A stretch of 64,000 nt of DNA from Chthoniobacterales bacterium (lineage in GTDB: Bacteria; Verrucomicrobiota; Verrucomicrobiia; Chthoniobacterales; DASVRZ01), in the NCBI GenBank assembly GCA_039930045.1, contig JBDSQB010000007.1, forward strand, positions 1-64,000, read 5' to 3'. Shown in pieces: positions 1 through 19,719 of this stretch; the first letter of the stretch is position 1, and the number at the start of each line of letters is the position of its first letter. The notes under the pieces are model-generated. The model saw only the letters and a list, made by a program, of their open reading frames with translations, had not been told where the DNA came from and did not search any database. Both the position numbers and the translations under genes were made by a program.

Positions 1-2600
1 ACGAGCCGGGCGAAAAGCGCACCATCTCCCCGGACGAACCCTTCGTCCAAATCCTCGACCCGGCCACCGGCACCGCCACCTTCCTCGTCGAAGTCATCGC
101 CGTCATCCACCGCACCCTCGCGGCGAAGTGGAAGCAGCAGCGCCTCACCGACGCCCAGCTGCGCGCCGCGTGGAACGACTACGTCCCGCAGCACCTCCTC
201 CCGCGCCTCCACGCCTTCGAGCTGATGATGGCCCCCTACGCCATCGCCCACATGAAAATCGGCCTCAAGCTCGCCGAGACCGGCTACCGCTTTGGCACTG
301 AGGAACGCGCCCGCATCTACCTCACCAACGCGCTGGAACCGTGGGTGAAACAGCTCCCGCTCATTGGCTTCGACGCCCTCGCCCACGAAGCCGCCGCCGT
401 GAACGAAATTAAACGGCACAAGCGCTTCACCGTCGTCATCGGCAACCCACCGTATGCGGGTGTCTCTTCGAACATGTCTGAGACTGCGCAGCGAATGGTG
501 GACGCATACAGAAAGGTGGACGGCGCTGCGCTAAACGAACGCAAACTTTGGCTCCAGGACGACTACGTTAAATTCATCCGCAAAGCGCAGGCCACCATCG
601 ACAACGCTGGTGTTGGAGTCTTTGGCTACATCACGAATCATGGCTATCTCGATAACCCGACCTTCCGAGGGATGCGGCAGAGCCTCATGGCGACATTCTC
701 TCGCCTTCGGGTGCTCGATCTTCACGGCAACGCGAACAAGCGCGAACAGCCGCCCGATGGCATTGACGACAAGAACGTCTTCGACATTCGGCAAGGCGTC
801 GCTATCTGCCTTGCAACGCGCGGCGGCGGTTTACCCGCTGTCGAACATACGGACGTGTGGGGGTCGCAACAATCGAAGTATGACTGGTTCGACCAACATC
901 GGGTCACCACTACCAATTTTGCGGAGTTAACACCTGACGCTCCGTTTTATTTCTTTGAGCCCCAAAACACTGACTGTCGCGCTGAATACGACGCAGGATT
1001 CAAGCTTACTGAGGCGATGCCTTGCTTCGGCCTCGGTTTTCAAAGCTCGCGCGATCACCTTGTTGTGGCCTTCGACAAAGCCGAGTTAGAGAAGCGACTA
1101 GAGTGGTTTCTAGCAAAGGAGCGCTCCGATACAGAAGTTCGCAACGAGTTGTTCCCAGGAAAGGTCGTTGCTGACTACGCAGCCGGAGACACAAGACAAT
1201 GGTCGCTCTCAAATGCACGTCGCGTTCTGCGTGCAGATCCGGATTGGCGGAGACGCATTAGGAAGTGCCTTTACCGTCCTTTCGATTCGAGGGTTATCCT
1301 TTACGACAAGCGAATGGTTGATTGGCCGCGCCCCGAAGTCCTCGGTCACATGCTGCGTCCGAATCTGTGTCTCATCACAAACCGGCAATCCAAAGAGGAC
1401 TTCGCGGCTCTTTGCACCGCCGACATTCCGGAGAGGAAAATTGCTGCCGTCTATGACGCTAGTTCATCCTTTCCACTCTACCTGTTACTTGACGATCAGG
1501 CCTTGAAGTTATCTGCTTCTAAGCAGCCAAACTTTTCGCATTCTTTCTTGAAAGCTTTGGCAGCAAATCTCGGACTTCAGCAGACAAAGCCGCACGGCCT
1601 ACCCACCGGCCTGACGCCCGAAGACATCTTCCACTACGCCTACGCGGTGTTTCACAGTCCCGGCTACCGGAGCCGCTACGCGGAGTTTCTGAAGATCGAT
1701 TTCCCGCGCCTGCCGTTGACCGGGAATCAGCAGCTCTTCCGCGCGCTGGCCCGGCTCGGCGGCGAACTCACCGCCCTGCACCTGCTGGAATCGCCCAAGC
1801 TCGCCCAGCCCATCACCGAGTTCATCGGCGACCGGAACCCGAAGGTCGAAAAAATCTCGTGGTCCAAAAACACCGTCTGGCTCGACAAAACCCAGACTAC
1901 CGGCTTTCGCGGCGTGCGCGAGGAGGTGTGGAACTTTCACATCGGCGGCTACCAGGTCTGCCAGAAATGGCTCAAAGACCGTAAAGGCCGGGAACTCACC
2001 CAAGAAGACCTCGCTCATTACCAAAAAATCGTCGTCGCCCTAGCCGAAACCATCCGCCTCATGGTCGAAATCGATATAGTAATTGGGCATCATGGTGGTT
2101 GGCCGGGCGCATTTGCAGCAGACACTCTCAAACTTCCCACGGAAAAACGCATACCTCTCACTGTTTCTCGCAACTACTGGCTCGAATTTGTGGTCGCCGC
2201 CGTTAGGTACTCCCGCAATAAACTTACTTTGCCGCTTCTCTGGGAGGCCCATCTTGTCGTCCTTGAGATTTCAAAATATCGCACGGAACTTGAGGTTGTG
2301 GTAGGCAGCGATACTACCATATGGGAAACGTCGCTTGCAACGGAGCCCATCAACCCGGGAGTTTTTCGTGAAGTCTTGGAATCACTTGCGATTAACGGAC
2401 AGCTGAAACGTGAGGAAGTAAATGGCTGCATCTGCTTAACACTGTCCAAAAATCTTTTCGTTACGCCGGGGAAATGGCGCGCATATGATGCAGCGGCAAT
2501 CCTAGCCATGCTTAAACAACGACCGGAGATCGTAGACATGGAGGAATTTATGCACAATGCGTCAACGGATTTCTATGAACTGGAAAAACTGCTTGCATGA
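1..2600 (+). CDS. Type ISP-like restriction-modification enzyme, 5'-truncated by window edge
   Basis: The frame is open from the first full codon at position 3, so the gene starts upstream; about 865 residues are visible. Near residue 19 there is an AdoMet-binding motif I (DPATGTATFL), and near residue 148 an NPPY motif IV of amino-methyltransferases. The later part (DIFHYAYAVFHSPGYRSRYA, then HGGWPGAF near residue 700) matches the target-recognition/C-terminal region of type ISP (single-polypeptide restriction, methylation and translocation) enzymes as I know them. Those proteins usually end near the HGGWPGAF motif. This one continues for about 160 residues with no recognised motif, which is unusual. 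The stop overlaps the next start (ATGA), implying translational coupling to the ATPase. The nuclease and helicase parts would lie outside the window and cannot be checked. Confidence 0.85.
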   Translation, partial: EPGEKRTISPDEPFVQILDPATGTATFLVEVIAVIHRTLAAKWKQQRLTDAQLRAAWNDYVPQHLLPRLHAFELMMAPYAIAHMKIGLKLAETGYRFGTEERARIYLTNALEPWVKQLPLIGFDALAHEAAAVNEIKRHKRFTVVIGNPPYAGVSSNMSETAQRMVDAYRKVDGAALNERKLWLQDDYVKFIRKAQATIDNAGVGVFGYITNHGYLDNPTFRGMRQSLMATFSRLRVLDLHGNANKREQPPDGIDDKNVFDIRQGVAICLATRGGGLPAVEHTDVWGSQQSKYDWFDQHRVTTTNFAELTPDAPFYFFEPQNTDCRAEYDAGFKLTEAMPCFGLGFQSSRDHLVVAFDKAELEKRLEWFLAKERSDTEVRNELFPGKVVADYAAGDTRQWSLSNARRVLRADPDWRRRIRKCLYRPFDSRVILYDKRMVDWPRPEVLGHMLRPNLCLITNRQSKEDFAALCTADIPERKIAAVYDASSSFPLYLLLDDQALKLSASKQPNFSHSFLKALAANLGLQQTKPHGLPTGLTPEDIFHYAYAVFHSPGYRSRYAEFLKIDFPRLPLTGNQQLFRALARLGGELTALHLLESPKLAQPITEFIGDRNPKVEKISWSKNTVWLDKTQTTGFRGVREEVWNFHIGGYQVCQKWLKDRKGRELTQEDLAHYQKIVVALAETIRLMVEIDIVIGHHGGWPGAFAADTLKLPTEKRIPLTVSRNYWLEFVVAAVRYSRNKLTLPLLWEAHLVVLEISKYRTELEVVVGSDTTIWETSLATEPINPGVFREVLESLAINGQLKREEVNGCICLTLSKNLFVTPGKWRAYDAAAILAMLKQRPEIVDMEEFMHNASTDFYELEKLLA

Positions 2601-4531
2601 ATACTTCCCCAATAATCTGGATAGAAGAATTACGAATCCTCCGCTCGTTCTCGCCGGACGTCAAAGAGGAAGTTAGAAAGATCACCTTTCGGCAAGGGCT
2701 AAACATTGTTTGGGCTACCGTCTCTTCGGAAACGGAGCCCGAATTGCCGGGCTTCGGCGGGCATGCCGCAGGCAAAACTTCCTTGTGCCGTTTGATTCGA
2801 TTTGTTCTTGGTGAAAGACACTATGGATCGCGATTTATGCGCGATCGAATTCTGAAAGCGTTTGAGAATGGGTGGGTGGTAGCCAAAATTTGGGTGGACC
2901 AAACTTCATGGATTGTCGCCCGCGCTTTTCGTTCCGGTCCTCACCCGGTTGCACTTCAAACCGATACGGTAGAGAGCATTTTCATAGGTGAAGAGGATCT
3001 GCTTCCCTTCGCAGAGTTTCGCAAGGCACTTGAAGAACTTGTGATTGCGCCCTTTCCATTGCACGAGTTTCCGTCAGAAAAGGAGCCGATCACATTTGGA
3101 CATCTCCTAGAATGGATGAGCCGGGATCAAGAATGTCGTTTATCAGGCCTTTTGGATTGGCGCCATCAATCCAGCGACCACGGAAGTCCAGAAATGTCAG
3201 CAGCCCAAAAGAGATTTCTAATTCGAGACTCTCTACATCTTGTGGACGATCTTGTTAGGAAAGAAATCGAAAAGCGCTCACCGCTGGAAAAGGAACTCAG
3301 CGCTATTCCAGATGAACTTGACTTTGAGCGTCGTAACTTGCAACAGGGACTATCCTCTTTGCGTAGTGCGCTATACCCGCAGGAAGTTCCTGATGTTGCA
3401 GGTTCCTTGTTTGTGGACACCATACGACGACTTGCGCAAACAAAACGTGATGCAGAATTATTGCCGTTAAAGATTTCGGAACAGGCTTTGAACGTTGGAG
3501 AACTTCAACGGAAACTGAACGAGTTAAATCAAGACCTTGGAGCCAAGAAGTTTCAGGAAAAAGAGCTTCAAGATTATCTAGAAAAGCAGCAAACGAGTTT
3601 GGAAGAAGCAAAAAATGACGGGACAGAGGCGGCATATGATCGATTTTGGGAAAACCTGCGACCTACGGATCAGCATTGTCGGGTTCCGATCTCAATAGCA
3701 CGCTTTCGCTGTCCGCTTCGGCAGGAATTTGAACCAGAGTCTTCAGCGTCATCTCTCAAGCCAGACTTTCTTGCGATTGAAGAGGCAGCGAAATCAATAA
3801 TTCAGAACCTCCAGATTGCTCTAGTTCCAATTAAAGAGGCTAAAGGCAAGTTAGAAGATGCGGTTGATGATCTGAGGTTGAAAATCGCATCGGCTGAACA
3901 ACAGGCTAGCCAAATAAGGAACGAATATTCAGAAGTCACAGCGAATCATACTTTAACCATTTTTCGTGCTGATCAAGCAGTGGCCGCTTGTGACCGAATT
4001 GAGAAACTGGAGGCGTGCGAAAAGAAGTTGGAGGTGGAAATAGAAGAATCAAAACTGAAACAAGAGGCTCTACAAGAGCGGCAAAAAAATCAACTCTCCG
4101 ATTTTTCCAGCGTTTACGAGTCTACCCTAAAAGCGTTTCTTGGCAGCGGTATCGAAGCACGCTGTAGATTCACACGAGAAGAAATCTCCTTGCATGCCGA
4201 TTATCGAGGGGAGTTATCTAGTGGAGCAATCGATACTTTAAAAACCCTCGCGTTCGATATAGCGGTTTTGCGTATGTCGATCCTTGGTAAAGGACACCAC
4301 CCGCGGTTTATAATTTTTGATAGCCCCAGAGAGGCAGACATGCATCCCATTCCTTACCAGAGAATCTTTCATCATTTAAAAAGCTTGGAAAGCGAAACCC
4401 TTCAATCCCCATTTCAGGTGATTTTAACAACTACGGAGCCACCACCAGCAAGATATCAACAGTCTAAAGAAACGGTTTTGCTTCTTGATGCTTCCAATCA
4501 AAAGGAACGGTTGTTCAGAACAGATTTTTAG
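2597..4531 (+). CDS. SMC/RecN-like ABC-type ATPase with coiled coil, probable defence partner
   Basis: This 644-residue protein has a Walker A motif (GGHAAGKT, about residues 54-61) and two central segments rich in Glu, Lys, Gln and Leu that look like coiled coil (about 210-330 and 390-500). It also has an ABC-signature-like ELSSGAIDTL (about 537-546) and a Walker B strand RFIIFDSP (about 570-577). That order is the SMC/Rad50/RecN layout. The N-terminal phrase FRQGLNIV before a long insertion and the P-loop resembles ATPases of computationally described ABC-three-component defence systems; this comparison is inference. The gene overlaps the upstream RM gene by 4 bp. Its base composition is visibly AT-richer than the rest of the window, consistent with horizontal acquisition. 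The DNA or nucleotide target is unknown. Confidence 0.8.
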   Translation: MNTSPIIWIEELRILRSFSPDVKEEVRKITFRQGLNIVWATVSSETEPELPGFGGHAAGKTSLCRLIRFVLGERHYGSRFMRDRILKAFENGWVVAKIWVDQTSWIVARAFRSGPHPVALQTDTVESIFIGEEDLLPFAEFRKALEELVIAPFPLHEFPSEKEPITFGHLLEWMSRDQECRLSGLLDWRHQSSDHGSPEMSAAQKRFLIRDSLHLVDDLVRKEIEKRSPLEKELSAIPDELDFERRNLQQGLSSLRSALYPQEVPDVAGSLFVDTIRRLAQTKRDAELLPLKISEQALNVGELQRKLNELNQDLGAKKFQEKELQDYLEKQQTSLEEAKNDGTEAAYDRFWENLRPTDQHCRVPISIARFRCPLRQEFEPESSASSLKPDFLAIEEAAKSIIQNLQIALVPIKEAKGKLEDAVDDLRLKIASAEQQASQIRNEYSEVTANHTLTIFRADQAVAACDRIEKLEACEKKLEVEIEESKLKQEALQERQKNQLSDFSSVYESTLKAFLGSGIEARCRFTREEISLHADYRGELSSGAIDTLKTLAFDIAVLRMSILGKGHHPRFIIFDSPREADMHPIPYQRIFHHLKSLESETLQSPFQVILTTTEPPPARYQQSKETVLLLDASNQKERLFRTDF

Positions 4532-4792: not shown

Positions 4793-5575
4793 TTAAAGAG
4801 AGGAGGAAGCCCGCAATCGGGCGTTGATGTCCAGAGCCGCTTCCAGGAGGGAGCCGGGGGCGAGTTGGTTCATGAGCATCCGGCCATCCTTCGGCAGGCA
4901 ATGGCCGCCGACTCCGGGGAGTCCGTCGGGGCCGTGGCTGGAAAGATAGCCGTGGCCCACGCGCGGATCGTGTTGCGCGGCGGCGATGACGCGGGTCCAA
5001 TCGAGGCCGCGGCTCTCGGCGAATTGCGCGAGTTGCGAGGCGAAGACGGCTTTGACGGTGGCGAAGCTGTTGAGGAAAAGCTTTACCAGTTCCGCCTCGC
5101 GAGTGGTGAGAATGATTCGGGTGGCAGGGCTATCGCAGAGGCTATCCATCGCTTGGAAAAAGGCGTTCGCGTGGTCGCCGCCATAGACGGTGAGCACGGG
5201 GTGGAGGAAGTCGGCATCGGCGCGTTCGCTCCGCAAGAACTCCGGGCTGAAGCCGAGCCGGAGTGTGGGAAATGCCGCCAGGAAGGCATCCGTCGTGCCG
5301 ACGGGAACGGTGGATCGCAGGACGATGCTGCCGGGGATTTGTTGTTCCGCAGCCTGGGCGAGCACGGAGCGAATGGCCGAAAGATCGCACACGCCTGCGG
5401 CATCGACCGGCGAGGGCACGGCGATGAAGACGACGTCTTGTGCGAGCGTTTTTTCCAGGGAATCCGGCGAGCGAGTCGGATCGATATCATAGCCGCAGAC
5501 CTCGCGGCTCAATGAGCAGAACCCGCGCCACATCGCGCCGCCAACCATGCCCAGGCCGATGATGCCTACAGACAC
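4793..5575 (-). CDS. UDP-glucose/GDP-mannose dehydrogenase family protein, short form
   Basis: The protein opens with a Rossmann NAD-binding motif (VGIIGLGMVGGAMW) and contains SPEFLRSERA and GVGGHCLPKD, the latter carrying the catalytic-cysteine motif of nucleotide-sugar 6-dehydrogenases. At about 260 residues it has the NAD and central domains but lacks the C-terminal nucleotide-sugar-binding domain of the usual 430-residue enzymes. A GTG start at 5575 is preferred: a GGAGG lies just upstream and the start overlaps the previous stop by only 10 bases. A longer ATG start would overlap by about 70. It is the last gene of the hisH-hisA-larC-ilvA-glycosyltransferase operon and probably acts in surface glycan or nucleotide-sugar metabolism. 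Whether the short form is active as an oxidase is unclear. Confidence 0.75.
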   Translation of the reverse strand: MSVGIIGLGMVGGAMWRGFCSLSREVCGYDIDPTRSPDSLEKTLAQDVVFIAVPSPVDAAGVCDLSAIRSVLAQAAEQQIPGSIVLRSTVPVGTTDAFLAAFPTLRLGFSPEFLRSERADADFLHPVLTVYGGDHANAFFQAMDSLCDSPATRIILTTREAELVKLFLNSFATVKAVFASQLAQFAESRGLDWTRVIAAAQHDPRVGHGYLSSHGPDGLPGVGGHCLPKDGRMLMNQLAPGSLLEAALDINARLRASSSL

Positions 5576-6792
5576 GCGGCCTCCGCAGTTCGGGCTTCCT
5601 CGGCGAGCGCGGCCCAGTCGGGGTGGTAGTGCCACCAGAGTTCGCGGTCGCTCAGCGGATGATAAAAGAGGGGCGACCCATCGAGCCAGGGCTGGAGCAC
5701 GCCGCTGTTGGTCTTGACCGATTCCGCATGACGAAAGGGCTGCGGCTCCGGCGCGATGGCATACGGCACGCCGAGCAGATCGCAGGCGAGGGCATACGTT
5801 TCCTTGTCGCCATAAGTGCAGGCGTAAAGGCGGCTTCCGAGGGTGTTCAGCGCGGCGGCCAGACGCAACGCCTCGCGCACGTCGGGCCGGCCCCGGTCCA
5901 CGAGGAGCTGACCCGACTCAAACTCGCAATCCGGCACAGGCAGGCCGAGCGATTGACGCAGAAAAGCGGTCTTCTCCGCGCAGCAACCCCAGGGGCCGTC
6001 GCGCCAGAGCAGGCAGCCGGGGGACGACGCAAAGAGGGCGGCGAGGTCTTGCAGGGGAAACGAATTGACGTCGAGCATGAGTGTTTTCCGAAAGCGCGAC
6101 TGGGAGAGCATCCAGGCCTTGAACCCATGGACTTCGTGGTGCCCGGACAAGCCCTCGAAGGGAGTGCCCGCCGCCTCGACGAAGCGGGCGTGGGGCCGCA
6201 GCGCCGTGAGTTGAGTGGCAGTGAATTCACCGGGCAAATGCCAGACGTCGATGGGCAGCGCGCAGCCCTGGCGGCGGATGAGCCGGAGGTTGGCATGGAG
6301 CGGGCGGAAGAGTTTGCCCGAGGCGGAAATGACGATGCCGGCCTCTGCGGTGGGCAGAGTTACCGGTGGCCAGGAAGCCGGGTCGTGCTGGATGCGGCGG
6401 ATTTTTTCCACCAACGCCGGGACCAGCGGACGCCAGTCGGTGCCATGCCGCGCGATGTAATGGAGCAGGGGATTTTCCCCGCTGTCGGCCAGCTCGGGAT
6501 GCCGCACCAGATACCAGGCGGTGTCGAAAAGCGGATGCGGGTCGCGCCCGTTCGCCGCGCCTTGGTCGAAGTATTGGACGATGGGGTTCACCCGGTTCGA
6601 CGCGGTGTCGGGATAGGTGCGACGATACCATTTCACGTCGAACAAGGGATGCGGCGACCATTTTTTGCGAAACCCGATCTGCGCGTAATGCTCCAGCGGA
6701 GTCAGACCGCTCTCAACGACTTCCGGGTGGCGCGCCAGATACCATTCCGGCGAAAGAATCTGGAGCCACGGCGGGCTGGTTTCCTGGATCAT
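5566..6792 (-). CDS. Putative alpha-mannosyltransferase-like glycosyltransferase with N-terminal WY-type repeats
   Basis: The first third holds three imperfect repeats of about 35 residues, each with a pattern like PLFDxxWYxxxxP followed by NPLxHY or a close variant. This module is common at the ends of bacterial polysaccharide glycosyltransferases. The rest resembles MNN1/GT71-like mannosyltransferases, including a TLMLDVNSFPLQD segment with an acidic motif, GCLLWRDG, and CEFESGQLLVDR. Start 6792 (MIQETS) is chosen because it follows the ilvA stop by 4 bases and is preceded by GAGG; an upstream ATG would overlap ilvA by about 100 bases. It overlaps the downstream dehydrogenase, so the two are probably coupled in making or modifying a surface glycan. 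The acceptor is unknown. Confidence 0.65.
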   Translation of the reverse strand: MIQETSPPWLQILSPEWYLARHPEVVESGLTPLEHYAQIGFRKKWSPHPLFDVKWYRRTYPDTASNRVNPIVQYFDQGAANGRDPHPLFDTAWYLVRHPELADSGENPLLHYIARHGTDWRPLVPALVEKIRRIQHDPASWPPVTLPTAEAGIVISASGKLFRPLHANLRLIRRQGCALPIDVWHLPGEFTATQLTALRPHARFVEAAGTPFEGLSGHHEVHGFKAWMLSQSRFRKTLMLDVNSFPLQDLAALFASSPGCLLWRDGPWGCCAEKTAFLRQSLGLPVPDCEFESGQLLVDRGRPDVREALRLAAALNTLGSRLYACTYGDKETYALACDLLGVPYAIAPEPQPFRHAESVKTNSGVLQPWLDGSPLFYHPLSDRELWWHYHPDWAALAEEARTAEAACL

Positions 6793-14544: not shown

Positions 14545-17500
14545 TTATTTCTGAATGGCGTATTCGGGCGAAACAAGGATGAGTTGCACAGCGGTACGAA
14601 CTTTGTCGCGTGCGCTCGTAGTCGGAAGACTAGGAGCGGACGGAGGGGAAGTGGTGGTTCCGGTGGCAGTCGTGGTTGGTGGAAACGAAGTGGTGTTGTT
14701 GAGGAAGGCGATGATGACGTCCTTGGAACTCTGGGTAAGCATTCCACCCGTCAGAATGTCGCCCAGCTTATTCACGAGCGCGGTCGCATCCACCGTGGTG
14801 GTTGTGGTGCTGGTTACTTTCGTTCCAGAGGTAGTAGAGGTGGTGCTTACACTAACATAGGGGGCCGTCATGTAAGAGCCAAGATCGAGATTGATGGATC
14901 CGCTTTTGAAGCTGCTCAGACCATTTGTGTTAGCAGAGCTTAAAATCGTGGAGGAGATCGTGTTTGTGAGATTCACAATGTTAGTATCCGTGGTCAATTG
15001 GAACTCCGGCGTGGTGACGTGATTGGCGGAAAGGCTGCCGGGGTATTGGTAGTCGGGATAGAAGTAGTTGAATACAGTCGGCGCGTTCAGCGGCGTTTGT
15101 CCGATCAAGGCATTGGTATTGCCCATGTCGAATTTACTGGCCCCCAAGCTCACATTTCCCGAGCGAACCAAAGGCGGGGGAGCCAGTGGATAAATCGTGC
15201 ACGGCTGGTTGGTTTCTGCCTCGTAAACAGTCGAGTTGGAAACTGTAAACTTTCGTTCATCTATGATCCCGCTGACTACAAACTCAGCATCCGCCAGTTT
15301 AGTCAGACTAGTTTGCAGTTGGAAATGATCGCCCACATTCACATTGCTGTTGTAGCTAGTCGTCACGGTAAGCGTGCTTCCGGTGGAGTTGGTCACAGTG
15401 TAATAACCGGTCGCCTTGGGCATGATGACAGTTCCGCTGACAGCCGCAGTCGGGGCGGCGTCGGTCGTGATCGTAAAGTGACTGGCATCTGGCACACTCG
15501 CCACAAGATAGATCCCTTCAGGAACGCTGCTGCCGGAGATGAATTTTAAGTAAACCTTTTCGCCGACAGGTGGTCCGCTTGTGTTGATTGTTAGAGTATT
15601 GGAGTTGGCTGCTTGTGAGTAACCAACGTTAGACAAGCCGGAGGCAGTCACCGCAAAAGTGTTGGCGGTCGGCGCTGGAGTGGAAAGGACCGTATAGCTG
15701 CCCGACGACGGATTGCTCGTGGGTGCCACTGGAGGATTCCCTGTGGTGTTGGCGCTGAAGTCCAGGCCGACGGCGTCGCCTCCGCTAAGACGGTGCGGCT
15801 GGTTGGTGGTAACGGTGACGACCGACGTTCCCGATTCGCTGTAAGTGCCGCTGTTTGCAACAAAAGGAAATGTGCGGGCAGGTCCGGTGATTCTGAGCAG
15901 CGGTTCGCGTTGCTTTCCCCAAGTGTTGGATGCCTGTGCCAAGGCGGCATCGCGAGCCTCACCATCGAGCAGAATGGCCCGAACAACCGCGGCAAGATTT
16001 CCTCGAGTGTGGCTTGGGGATGCGTCGTCATTGAAGACTTGGACGACGCGCTGGAGATAGGCCGGGCTCGGATGGCTGGCGACGAGTCGCTGGATGAGTT
16101 GGCGGCAGATGTAAGGGCCGGTGTTGGGATGATAGAAAATACTGTCCAGCGTACTCTCCAGATCCTGGGTTCCATAGCTATCGTAGAGAGCGGTGCTGGG
16201 GTCGGCCTGCGAGCCAGCGACGGGAGCGCCAGTCGGATTATAGCCGGAAGCAGCCGGAAGCACGACGTTGTCCAGCAAGGTTTTGGTGCCGAGTTCGTGG
16301 TATTTTTTTACCATCACCATCGGAGCGGTGAAGTTGGATGGGGGAGAGAAACTATTTGGCAACTGACCATTGGTCTGGAGGGCTTGGTTCCAGTTCCAGC
16401 CGGTAAAGACACGGGCAAATCCATTGGTGATGACGCCCTGATCGTAGGTCGGCACCAGATTGCCCTGAGAGTCGAGCACAAGGGAACCGTCGGGCCAGAG
16501 ACGATTGAGTCCGATGGAGAAAAGCTGCATGATCTCGCGGGCGTAGTTTTCATTGGGATGATAACCCGTGGCGAGATTGCCTGGAGCATTGCCCTGCATG
16601 TTCAACCAAAAACCCATTGTCGGATGAAGCGTGACGGCCTTGAGCAGATCGCGGAAGTTACCAAATGCGTTGTCTGCGAGAGTATCGTAATACGAGGCGA
16701 GGCCATCCGCATGGATAGCCAAAGTCTGGCTGGTATCGGAAACAACGAGTATCTGGCTCAGGGCAAAAGCCATGCGCTGGCGCAACTGGTCCGGCGCGAA
16801 GACAGCGGCCCGCCACCAGGCGTTATCCACCGTGGTGCTTGCGTAGGGATTGCTGGCGATTCTGGCCGCCTGTGCCTGCACGTCGGGAAGGAGATGAGTG
16901 GCAGGCAATGTGAGTTGGTTAGATATCCAGCCGTCGTATCCGCCGCTCTTCACAATGGCCATGTCGGACGGCGCAGCCCCGAAGGCGGCTTGGTTTAAGA
17001 AACGCGCAGCTCCGGCATCCGTGGAATGATCATCTGTGAAACTAGGATCTGGCACCGGGACAGGTGCTTTCTGCGAGCCTTTGACCAAGGAGAGAAATCC
17101 ACGGATTTCACCAGAGGGATAATTCACCGTGTGGACATTCAGATACGCCAGACCCTGCTGAATGGCCGACACAATCTGGGCGGCTGTGTAGATCCCCGAA
17201 TCCGTGATATTCCAAATATAGCCTCCGTCCTCAGTGATGAGTTCCGGATGGAATTTATCCATGTCATCCAGATCGAAAACAATCTGGCCGCTGCTGGAAT
17301 GATCCGACGCGATATGAATGTGATACGCCGTGCGTGGCGAGGAGAGTCCACTGTAATTGAAGTGAAGAATAGCCTGAGCATTGCCTGGCATCATTCTCAG
17401 ATTGGCGGAACCAGTCGCCGTGGTGGCGGCAGAACCTTGCGGCGAGAGATTGGTGACGTAAAGATCACCCTCTGCCCCCACGGTTGTGGGATAGCCATAC

Positions 17501-19719
17501 TTGGAAAGCAAATACCCCGGGGCCGGCGTCGCACCCGCAGGCGGATTGGCCGTGGCTCCCAAAGGATCCAGCAGATAACTGACAGACACGTGGCTGGAAT
17601 CGCCGGAGCCGCCCGTGTTATGCAGCACCTCATAATAATAACTCTGCCCCGCTGTGAGGGCGATCCATGGGGATTTTTGATGGGGCTGTGTGGCGTCGGC
17701 CCAGTTTTGCGAAGTAGTCCCCGGAGCGGTGATCCAGGCACGGCGCACGAGATTGACGGGTTCCGCATCGTTGGAAATCCAGAGTTCGGCGTTGTTGCTG
17801 GCCGCGATCCAAAAATAATAATTTCCCGTGGCTGGGGCGACGAAATATCCGCGCAGCCGCTCACCCGTGTTATTCCCGTAGGCTGCGGAATCTTCCAGAG
17901 CGACGAGCGCATTATCCGGTGGCTGCGGCGGCGAGGACAATGCTGGTGGAATGTCCGAGATGCTGGCTCCGGGCAGACCGGGCCATAATTCGCGCGTCAC
18001 GCCGCTGCCGAGATTAAGGATTTGAATGTCGAGGACCGACGCACCCACGCCATTGGCAGTCGTGGCAGTGAGAGTCACTTGGAAGTTGCCCGCCGCGGTC
18101 GGAATGCCGCTGATCTGGCCCGTGGTCGGATTCAAAGTCAGCCCCGGCGGGAAAGGTCCGCTCCCAATCCCTCGAGCAAATGTGGCCAGCAGCCCACCAG
18201 AAACACTGGCGGTGACGTTGAAGGTGAAGGCTTGGTTAACAAACCCAACCGCTGTCGCTGGACTCGTGATCGCTGGAGGCGCTGCGGTGGTCGCCAACGG
18301 ATAAAGTCGTGAAGCCGGGATGACTTGTTTGGGCTGGCTGTTGCTATACCAATAGAGGTGAATCTGGTCACCCCCGGCGGCTTGATAATATTCCAACCGG
18401 ATGTCGTAGAGCACCCCCGCCTGGAGCGGAATGTTGGCCAGACGGTCCGCCCCAATGTAACTCCAGCTATCGAGGATGAGCTGCCCATTCACCCACAATT
18501 TCACACCGTCGTCCGACACCACATCGAAGGTGTAAGTTTCCGAATATTGCGGCTGCACTTGTCCCTGCCAGCGCACGCCAAAGTAAGTCGGATTCACCAC
18601 CCCTGGAGAAGGCGAGGCTGTGCTGCTCCAGACGTAGTCGAGCGTTGGATCGACCCGCGTCAACGCTGGCGTGCCGGTAAACAACGCCGGATTGTAAGGC
18701 GACACCGCCTTGGCGCCCGTGCTGGTGCCGTTGAAATACATCCCGGTCAGGCCCGACCCTGCCGGTTTTCCCGAGGGCGCAATCACGACGCTGGCACTGC
18801 TGGTTCCACCCAGCGTGTAGCCGCCTCCTGACATGGCGGAAATGGTCACCGTTGAGCTGGTCTGCTGGCTGGAGTTTGCCAGCGGCGTGATGGTTAGAGT
18901 GATGGAGCCAACCCTCGCGGGGAACGTGACAAATGAGGGTAGTGAGGCGAAATCCACTCCTGCCACCGCCGTGCCGGTGACGGTGATCGGAACCGTAATG
19001 GCGCTGAAATGCAGGGTGCCGCCCCGCGTGATTGTGATCGAAGCCGTGTCTGTCGCGAGAGTAGTGGAATCGACCGGTTGAGTGGCGGTCGATTTCGTCG
19101 CACGGACGGTCACGACGTTTTCCTGCATAAAATCGTGGAGCAACGCCGCATGATCATTTTCCAAAGCCCCGTGGGTGTGATCAGCGGACGCATCAAAACC
19201 GGTGATCGTCTCCGCCCAATCGCTCACTCCATCGGCATCGCTATCCACGTTCTGAACATTGATTCGATAAAAAGTATTCCGATCCAAGTCAGGTGACGGC
19301 GGGACAAACGTCAGGAGACTTCCGTTGCCCATCGTCTGCATCGGGGGAGAAAATGCAGACCAACTGGATGCATCCGTCAGATCGGTTGAAAACTGTAGCG
19401 CATAAAGCTTCCCGGTGATGGATGGAAAGGTAATCGACGGGCTGTCGGCACTGGCTAAAGCCGAGGTAATTCTAAAAGTAGAATTCGTGGTAAATGGATT
19501 CGTTCCCGCGACTAGCTCGGAGCCATTGCTAGTGCCGTCTCCATCATCATCACCGGCCAGCCAGGCGGGATCTGAAATCTGCGCATCCGTCACGCCGTAA
19601 AGCATTTTCCAAACGGTCTGGTCAATCTGGGGATCGATCTGCGCGTAGATCGGAATTGATGCACAAAAAAAGTGAAGCAACGCCAGAATGCACGGAAGCA
19701 TTTGGAGAGGACGGCGCAT
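14545..19719 (-). CDS. Giant secreted DUF1800 protein with PA14, putative-Ig and CHRD domains
   Basis: This 1,724-residue exported protein begins with a signal peptide ending near IPIYAQ. In order I see: an acidic GDDDGDGTSNGSE calcium-type repeat; a Calx-beta-like region (about 190-320); a PA14 domain (about 325-470, with YTFDVVSDDGVKLWVNGQ); a He-PIG/Ig-like domain (GLTLNPTTGQISGIPT); a second PA14-like region (about 570-720); a CHRD domain (about 745-870, HIASDHSSSGQI); then DUF1800 from about 903 (ARFLNQAAFGA) to the end. DUF1800 is split by an insertion at about 1285-1515 made of two Thr/Ser-rich beta repeats. PA14 and CHRD suggest carbohydrate or matrix contact at the cell surface. The gene heads the operon with DUF1501. 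Confidence 0.85.
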   Translation of the reverse strand: MRRPLQMLPCILALLHFFCASIPIYAQIDPQIDQTVWKMLYGVTDAQISDPAWLAGDDDGDGTSNGSELVAGTNPFTTNSTFRITSALASADSPSITFPSITGKLYALQFSTDLTDASSWSAFSPPMQTMGNGSLLTFVPPSPDLDRNTFYRINVQNVDSDADGVSDWAETITGFDASADHTHGALENDHAALLHDFMQENVVTVRATKSTATQPVDSTTLATDTASITITRGGTLHFSAITVPITVTGTAVAGVDFASLPSFVTFPARVGSITLTITPLANSSQQTSSTVTISAMSGGGYTLGGTSSASVVIAPSGKPAGSGLTGMYFNGTSTGAKAVSPYNPALFTGTPALTRVDPTLDYVWSSTASPSPGVVNPTYFGVRWQGQVQPQYSETYTFDVVSDDGVKLWVNGQLILDSWSYIGADRLANIPLQAGVLYDIRLEYYQAAGGDQIHLYWYSNSQPKQVIPASRLYPLATTAAPPAITSPATAVGFVNQAFTFNVTASVSGGLLATFARGIGSGPFPPGLTLNPTTGQISGIPTAAGNFQVTLTATTANGVGASVLDIQILNLGSGVTRELWPGLPGASISDIPPALSSPPQPPDNALVALEDSAAYGNNTGERLRGYFVAPATGNYYFWIAASNNAELWISNDAEPVNLVRRAWITAPGTTSQNWADATQPHQKSPWIALTAGQSYYYEVLHNTGGSGDSSHVSVSYLLDPLGATANPPAGATPAPGYLLSKYGYPTTVGAEGDLYVTNLSPQGSAATTATGSANLRMMPGNAQAILHFNYSGLSSPRTAYHIHIASDHSSSGQIVFDLDDMDKFHPELITEDGGYIWNITDSGIYTAAQIVSAIQQGLAYLNVHTVNYPSGEIRGFLSLVKGSQKAPVPVPDPSFTDDHSTDAGAARFLNQAAFGAAPSDMAIVKSGGYDGWISNQLTLPATHLLPDVQAQAARIASNPYASTTVDNAWWRAAVFAPDQLRQRMAFALSQILVVSDTSQTLAIHADGLASYYDTLADNAFGNFRDLLKAVTLHPTMGFWLNMQGNAPGNLATGYHPNENYAREIMQLFSIGLNRLWPDGSLVLDSQGNLVPTYDQGVITNGFARVFTGWNWNQALQTNGQLPNSFSPPSNFTAPMVMVKKYHELGTKTLLDNVVLPAASGYNPTGAPVAGSQADPSTALYDSYGTQDLESTLDSIFYHPNTGPYICRQLIQRLVASHPSPAYLQRVVQVFNDDASPSHTRGNLAAVVRAILLDGEARDAALAQASNTWGKQREPLLRITGPARTFPFVANSGTYSESGTSVVTVTTNQPHRLSGGDAVGLDFSANTTGNPPVAPTSNPSSGSYTVLSTPAPTANTFAVTASGLSNVGYSQAANSNTLTINTSGPPVGEKVYLKFISGSSVPEGIYLVASVPDASHFTITTDAAPTAAVSGTVIMPKATGYYTVTNSTGSTLTVTTSYNSNVNVGDHFQLQTSLTKLADAEFVVSGIIDERKFTVSNSTVYEAETNQPCTIYPLAPPPLVRSGNVSLGASKFDMGNTNALIGQTPLNAPTVFNYFYPDYQYPGSLSANHVTTPEFQLTTDTNIVNLTNTISSTILSSANTNGLSSFKSGSINLDLGSYMTAPYVSVSTTSTTSGTKVTSTTTTTVDATALVNKLGDILTGGMLTQSSKDVIIAFLNNTTSFPPTTTATGTTTSPPSAPSLPTTSARDKVRTAVQLILVSPEYAIQK

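Follow-up and report, generated by a model that had tools for sequence, protein, structure and literature searches.

A C-terminal tail and an SMC-like ATPase shared by different restriction systems: a candidate Lamassu-like cassette at a Chthoniobacterales contig end

At one end of a contig from a Chthoniobacterales bacterium, a restriction-modification (RM) protein runs on beyond the point at which proteins of its kind usually stop, and the gene that follows encodes an ATPase of the SMC type. What is the added tail, and is its place beside the ATPase gene more than accidental? In the first-pass annotation, a composite defence system was suspected, perhaps related to the ABC-three-component (ABC-3C) systems, in which a small middle component links ATPase and effector. 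The window analysed here is the whole stretch of 64,000 nucleotides, and the locus occupies its first 4531 positions.

The RM protein, its tail and the ATPase

The RM gene comprises the following features.
3..2600, + strand: RM open reading frame, 865 aa remaining, open at the 5' end (ORF list)
3..2090, + strand: RM body, aa 1-696 of the part present, adenine methyltransferase and Type_ISP_C target-recognition domain (Pfam, PADLOC)
57..86, + strand: methyltransferase motif I, DPATGTATFL (sequence)
444..455, + strand: methyltransferase motif IV, NPPY (sequence)
1014..2063, + strand: Type_ISP_C specificity domain PF18135, aa 338-687, E 1.9e-86 (Pfam)
2091..2114, + strand: HGGWPGAF, aa 697 onward, end of the ordinary RM protein (28 relatives)
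2115..2597, + strand: tail domain, aa 705-865, predicted LmuC/middle-component-like winged helix (withheld-profile match, AF2, fold matches)

As the window starts at base 1 of contig C7, it is the contig end, not the window edge, that cuts the RM gene. Full-length relatives mostly measure ~1040-1240 aa, and ~430-460 aa of the N-terminus probably lie beyond the contig end; this missing part could hold a nuclease. A second copy of the RM gene is located at the end of contig C8 (L150, G000:C8:1-1782, minus strand), its inner part matching window bases 1-61 exactly and showing 83% identity over 465 bases, with divergence around NPPY (window 1-454). The 3' part of this copy was looked for in the genome and not found. 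The assembly break falls inside the duplicated 5' region of the RM gene.

Motif I, NPPY and the HGGWPGAF end, which the first-pass annotation had read as type ISP features, are all present in the sequence. Methyltransferase and Type_ISP_C domain (the only occurrence of this domain in the genome) are placed by Pfam on one chain as in type ISP RM, an arrangement shared with the single-chain type ISP/IIG enzymes LlaBIII, LlaGI and 7lo5. Type ISP enzymes carry an SF2 helicase/translocase before the methyltransferase, and LlaBIII has 1578 aa; in contrast, no helicase was found by Pfam in the two close, full-length relatives of the window protein that were checked (~1170-1240 aa), nor in the C8 paralogue over its first 594 aa. 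The window protein matches Eco57I in Pfam (E 1.2e-8) and, weakly, mad2 in PADLOC (4.7e-5); its best PADLOC model is REase_MTase_IIG (5.4e-158, profile positions to 1076/1096) and its best PDB match is 7lo5 (1029 aa). Since the best PADLOC model, the 7lo5 match, the lengths of the relatives and the lack of a helicase match in those checked agree, the enzyme is probably type IIG-like with a type-ISP-like recognition domain and not a canonical type ISP enzyme, and the earlier label is retained for the C-terminal specificity domain only.

Unlike the type ISP/IIG enzymes, the window protein has an extra 160-aa domain and an ATPase partner. The ~160 residues of unrecognised sequence after HGGWPGAF had been pointed out before; they extend to the stop at 2600, and no family for them was found in Pfam, PADLOC or NCBIfam. 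When relatives of the RM core were searched in 388 genomes of the phylum and their C-termini then read, all 28 with an intact C-terminus (28/28) ended 3-47 residues past the core, at or near GGWPGAF, leaving nothing to which the tail could align. None of the 28 gave a tail-profile match, and no ATPase was seen in the stretches fetched around them. The tail is a real domain that does not belong to ordinary relatives.

The ATPase gene comprises the following features.
2597..4531, + strand: SMC/Rad50-like ABC ATPase of the DUF2326/LmuB kind, 644 aa (PADLOC, Pfam, fold)
2597..2600, + strand: ATGA stop/start overlap of the RM and ATPase genes, 4 bases (sequence)
2756..2779, + strand: Walker A (P-loop) GGHAAGKT, with H56, G59 and K60 invariant in 55 sequences
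3119..3133, + strand: family-specific SRDQE motif, with R176, D177 and Q178 at least 90% conserved in 55 sequences
3248..4141, + strand: coiled-coil hairpin, aa 218-515, predicted helices
3677-3712, + strand: hairpin apex CxVPxxxAxxxxC, with C361 and C372 invariant in 16 sequences
4214..4237, + strand: ABC signature-like LSSGAIDT, with A544 at least 90% conserved
4304..4339, + strand: Walker B / D-loop region RFIIFDSPREAD (sequence)

The description of this gene as overlapping by 4 bases and encoding a P-loop, coiled-coil and ABC-signature ATPase is borne out by GGHAAGKT, LSSGA and the Walker B motif. A Glu directly after the Walker B Asp is the usual arrangement, whereas FIIFDSPRE (D-S-P-R-E) has the Asp without a Glu directly after it; D575, P577 and D581 are invariant and R578 nearly so among 55 ATPase relatives, and the ATPase may possibly use an unusual ATP hydrolysis chemistry. 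The protein, present in one copy in the genome, was assigned to no clear family by Pfam or NCBIfam, its DUF2326 match (9e-6) lying under the Pfam gathering score, and a PDB sequence-profile search returned coiled-coil noise. In PADLOC it matches LmuB at 2.6e-20 over aa 58-614, far ahead of mad3 (2.6e-5) and JetC (0.0036). A fold search with its model (pLDDT 87, pTM 0.73) placed YydD first (9a6c_A, Z 31.8), followed by the LmuB chains 9uxh_F, 9nyg_B, 9hqx_B and 9hqu_A (Z 26.4-21.9), with SMC and Rad50 heads below LmuB at Z about 21 and lower. A fold search of viral models gave no match.

Recurrence of the pair on different restriction systems

Scanning genomes with the ATPase sequence alone yielded no relatives, and an alignment-based scan of a one-genome-per-species set yielded 267 places. 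Loci were gathered by ATPase similarity alone, from 14 of the 388 phylum genomes, 10 plasmids, the best 80 of the 267 places and 3 viral contigs. In nearly all of them the upstream gene on the same strand ends no more than about 100 bases from where the ATPase gene begins, and the tail was found at the C-terminus of that preceding gene in 98 of 101 loci (including the best 80 of 267). As five pairs of loci proved to be the same contig fetched twice, this corresponds to 93 of 96 distinct loci. Together with the 28 tail-less relatives lacking a nearby ATPase, the count upholds the suspected bond between added tail and ATPase. The exceptions, with an ATPase and no clear tail, are L038, L039 and L049; L039 (2-11525) is a BREX operon (PglX, PglZ, BrxL) in which the ATPase follows brxL and the tail was found on no gene.

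Recognition of the tail required profiles: a single-sequence phmmer comparison of the window tail with 18 partner proteins gave no hit, and a direct tail search of plasmids gave no match. A profile of upstream tails built without the window and L037 matched the window RM protein at aa 706-846 (i-E 4e-7), the best reversed decoy reaching E 0.5, and the tail profile trained without the window matched aa 708-857 (E 6.7e-8). Since most loci were in the training set, the test was repeated with each partner type withheld. All withheld groups were recovered, with E values from 1.2e-4 to 5e-28 against 0.0011 for the best shuffled or unrelated ORF in all runs: HsdS at 4e-12 and 4.8e-28, Res at 4.9e-8 and 6e-22, PglX at 2e-17 and DISARM at 8.7e-20, with L037 also found. 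The weakest withheld member was L054 (1.2e-4), other members of its group scoring 2e-5 to 5e-8.

Chance adjacency at the contig end, meaning a frame-extended RM gene beside an unrelated ATPase gene, might be suggested by the position of the RM gene, where the assembly breaks within a duplicated 5' region. This break affects the 5' end and is separated from the tail by 2 kb, and the reading is contradicted by recurrence of the pair in many bacterial phyla and by its recovery with withheld-group profiles, so that it is hardly credible.

Tail and ATPase distances are correlated (r 0.93; 0 of 2000 permutations as high), a value to which shared descent contributes and which is to be read as co-inheritance, not contact. 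The ATPase gene had been described as AT-richer than its surroundings and consistent with transfer, and composition supports this more sharply than stated, as the GC3 drop begins near the tail start and not at the gene boundary (RM body 0.705, tail 0.491, ATPase 0.419). Of 86 coding blocks of the same size from the rest of the window, only 1.2% have a GC3 as low as that of the tail. The position of the step fits a joint arrival of tail and ATPase.

Partner proteins were identified by Pfam and PADLOC, and the pair was found attached to DNA restriction systems of five or more clearly distinct kinds. In total, 78 partner bodies fall into one cluster with MmeI/Eco57I-type methyltransferases (ARMADA-like and other MmeI-like). 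The other carriers of the tail include type I HsdS (L041, L048, L082; in L048 a type I HsdM lies next door), type III-like Res (L051, L117; in L117 a type III Mod lies next door) and a PglX-like protein in L045, a locus with BrxC, PglX and BrxL. In L055 (2072-18126), a complete class 1 DISARM system with DrmD, DrmMI, DrmA, DrmB and DrmC, the tail is on DrmMI and the ATPase gene lies between drmMI and drmA; that the tail is a part of normal DrmMI was rejected, because the DrmMI model stops at aa 1354/1522 in this protein. In L032 (230-15274), DruE-like and DpdE/BrxH-like helicases precede the methyltransferase. The co-occurrence of tail and ATPase beside different effectors, raised as a check in the first-pass annotation, is thereby found on HsdS, Res, PglX, DrmMI and MmeI-like bodies; the RM neighbourhood of the ATPase is strongly conserved, and the pairing is peculiar neither to the window genome nor to its RM type.

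A type IIG/ISP partner was seen in the window only, among 96 distinct loci (including the best 80 of 267). The closest relative of the window ATPase over the same loci is that of L037 (59%; including the best 80 of 267), whose tail is 45% identical to the window tail and whose body has no detectable similarity to the window RM body. A quick ATPase tree requires at least six changes of partner type, five of which are forced by well-supported branches.

Further features were observed at individual loci. L032 and also L017-L022 are ARMADA-like operons in which the ATPase is the following fourth gene, some of them on conjugative plasmids. L117 (2101-9923), from the viral collection, contains the Mod/Res pair with the tail on Res, the ATPase and a recombinase-like gene near, and its contig is possibly a mobile element. 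L045 encodes, at 15543-17852, a BrxL-like protein with a C-terminal part matching the kinase-type defence models PD-T4-6 and mad6.

Relation to Lamassu and ABC-3C systems

A middle-component role for the tail was set down as a hypothesis before the fold search. The AF2 model of the tail, built on a 60-sequence alignment, contains a winged helix within a helical domain (pLDDT 87, pTM 0.84). In the fold search the LmuC chains 9ny5_C, 9hqu_D and 9uxh_D ranked 1st, 4th and 5th with weak Z scores of 6.2, 6.1 and 6.1; their alignments cover 119-124 residues over model positions 21-157, and those of the other listed winged helices at most 94, at tied Z. As a Z below 8 can reflect a common arrangement, the predicted likeness of the tail to LmuC is supported, not proven. 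Foldseek against PDB gave no significant match for the model, a PDB sequence-profile search with the tail found nothing, and by sequence the tail matched neither LmuC nor the published middle-component families in Pfam. With the fold of the tail leading to LmuC and that of the ATPase to YydD and LmuB, the two halves point independently to partners of one known complex. The ABC-3C link suggested at first is supported; the tail itself would be no arbitrary extension, but is a candidate middle component fused to the RM protein.

For Lamassu, a sensor role has been proposed for LmuB, with LmuC as the middle component, and all components were needed wherever tested (PMC10586767); structural work has been reported to suggest DNA-end binding (PMC12904381). 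The window locus resembles Lamassu type II (LmuA-LmuC-LmuB; DdmABC) in that its ATPase is related to LmuB in sequence and fold, and in that the element directly before the ATPase gene has LmuC as its longest, albeit weak, fold match. It differs in that the middle component is fused to the RM C-terminus with no separate LmuC gene, and in that whole RM, DISARM, BREX or ARMADA-like proteins stand where Lamassu has its LmuA effector. The LmuBs of 9ny5, 9nyg and 9uxh, several of those solved, are of the DUF3732 kind, whereas the window ATPase is nearer DUF2326. ABC-3C systems have an effector, a small middle component and a coiled-coil ABC ATPase, in that order; the window and most relatives differ from them in that the middle component is not a gene of its own and in that a modification enzyme, which marks self, serves as the partner.

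A separate tail gene was found in two Planctomycetota MAGs, L088 (399-3427) and L114 (5966-9259), where it encodes 186 aa and the ATPase gene comes next. The gene before it has a GNAT match below threshold (E about 0.1), L114 also has a ribbon-helix-helix gene upstream of the tail gene (2.3e-6), and no methyltransferase-body-like sequence was seen upstream of the tail gene in either. The two ATPases are near-identical, the L114 copy appearing frameshifted and the L088 copy open. As predicted from the genes, this would be the ABC-3C order of effector, middle component and ATPase, and the two loci are possibly toxin-like ABC-3C systems.

The tail could also be an extra DNA-binding winged helix serving RM target recognition or dimerisation, with the ATPase a co-transcribed but independent clamp or repair protein. 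The predicted fold is indeed a winged helix, many DNA-binding winged helices score like LmuC, and the C-terminal wHTH and coiled-coil extension of BREX BrxX have been read in this way (PMC12839542). Such a function would not explain why the tail is absent from the 28 ATPase-less relatives and, with few exceptions, present wherever the ATPase is, nor why it occurs on proteins with unrelated modes of DNA recognition including type III-like Res, and as a separate gene beside the ATPase with no RM gene seen in L088 and L114; the distance correlation likewise speaks against it. This explanation is considered unlikely.

As for modification-based systems, ARMADA, DISARM class 1 and BREX resemble the window where the cassette rides on a DrmMI/PglX-like methyltransferase (L032, L055 and L045, respectively), and to our knowledge ATPase and tail are not in the core gene sets of these three. 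The layout of L032 resembles ARMADA type I (PMC12458937); the ARMADA preprint makes no mention of an SMC or ABC ATPase (PMC12458937), nor does the BREX survey of DUF2326 or Lamassu (PMC12839542). MADS likewise couples a methyltransferase to other components, and mad3 matches the C-terminal half of the ATPase; that match is much weaker than the one to LmuB, and the RM protein matches mad2 weakly. Hma (helicase, methylase, ATPase; PMC8565338) was set aside, since its methylase is of the m5C kind and no Hma model matched the ATPase. As far as the literature was checked, the kinds of components are known and their combination is not described in the ARMADA preprint or the BREX survey; the ABC-3C lists of Krishnan et al. 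2020 may include such loci.

A proposed gating role and its significance

The locus is likely to encode a two-protein defence complex, in which an RM enzyme with an LmuC-like tail would dock a dimeric LmuB-like ATPase, tail and ATPase forming a swappable cassette that would gate restriction. The analysis shows the shared domain, its fixed partnership with the ATPase, the family of the ATPase and repeated switches of partner: the cassette has been attached more than once to RM-type proteins of different kinds, the window partner probably being a type IIG-like methylase/endonuclease. In the proposed mechanism, the winged helix of the tail would bind the SMC/Rad50-type dimer encoded by the next gene. 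The RM part would take the place of the effector, methylation of its target sites telling self from non-self, and the ATPase dimer would sense DNA ends or abnormal replication structures, as proposed for Lamassu. Through the tail the two signals would be coupled, and restriction would be licensed only when both are present. That the two proteins form a complex, that cleavage is gated and which signal is sensed are inferred by analogy with Lamassu. The position of the tail, on the target-reading subunit (HsdS, methyltransferase, PglX) or on the driver of cleavage (Res), fits a gating of restriction. A more specific version, offered tentatively and judged somewhat short of probable, is a plug-in licensing module, in which a Lamassu-type sensor of DNA structure is mounted on specificity or motor subunits and a site would be cut only if it is unmethylated and a phage-like DNA structure is present as well.

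A guard against anti-restriction would be a different use of the same parts: ATPase and tail would watch over the RM protein as bait and kill the cell once a phage inhibitor had bound to it. Many restriction-type proteins targeted by phage inhibitors do carry the cassette. Ocr, an anti-restriction protein, is sensed by PARIS, which likewise belongs to the ABC-ATPase systems (PMC12839542), and L088 and L114 offer a GNAT-like gene as candidate effector. The window operon, in contrast, ends with the ATPase: the next long ORF (4793..5635) lies on the other strand, no separate toxin gene was seen downstream, and the long ORFs there look metabolic by eye. A guard role is regarded as quite improbable, and the licensing of restriction by two signals is preferred.

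The locus joins the SMC-like Lamassu and ABC-3C systems with modification-based defence (RM types I, II and III, BREX, DISARM and ARMADA), which have been treated as separate. It offers a testable proposal, restriction gated by a second signal, that bears on how large systems spare their own genome, and the tail and ATPase profiles provide a handle to re-annotate loci labelled only 'chromosome segregation protein SMC' or 'DUF2326'. The pattern suggests a reusable control module for antiviral defence.
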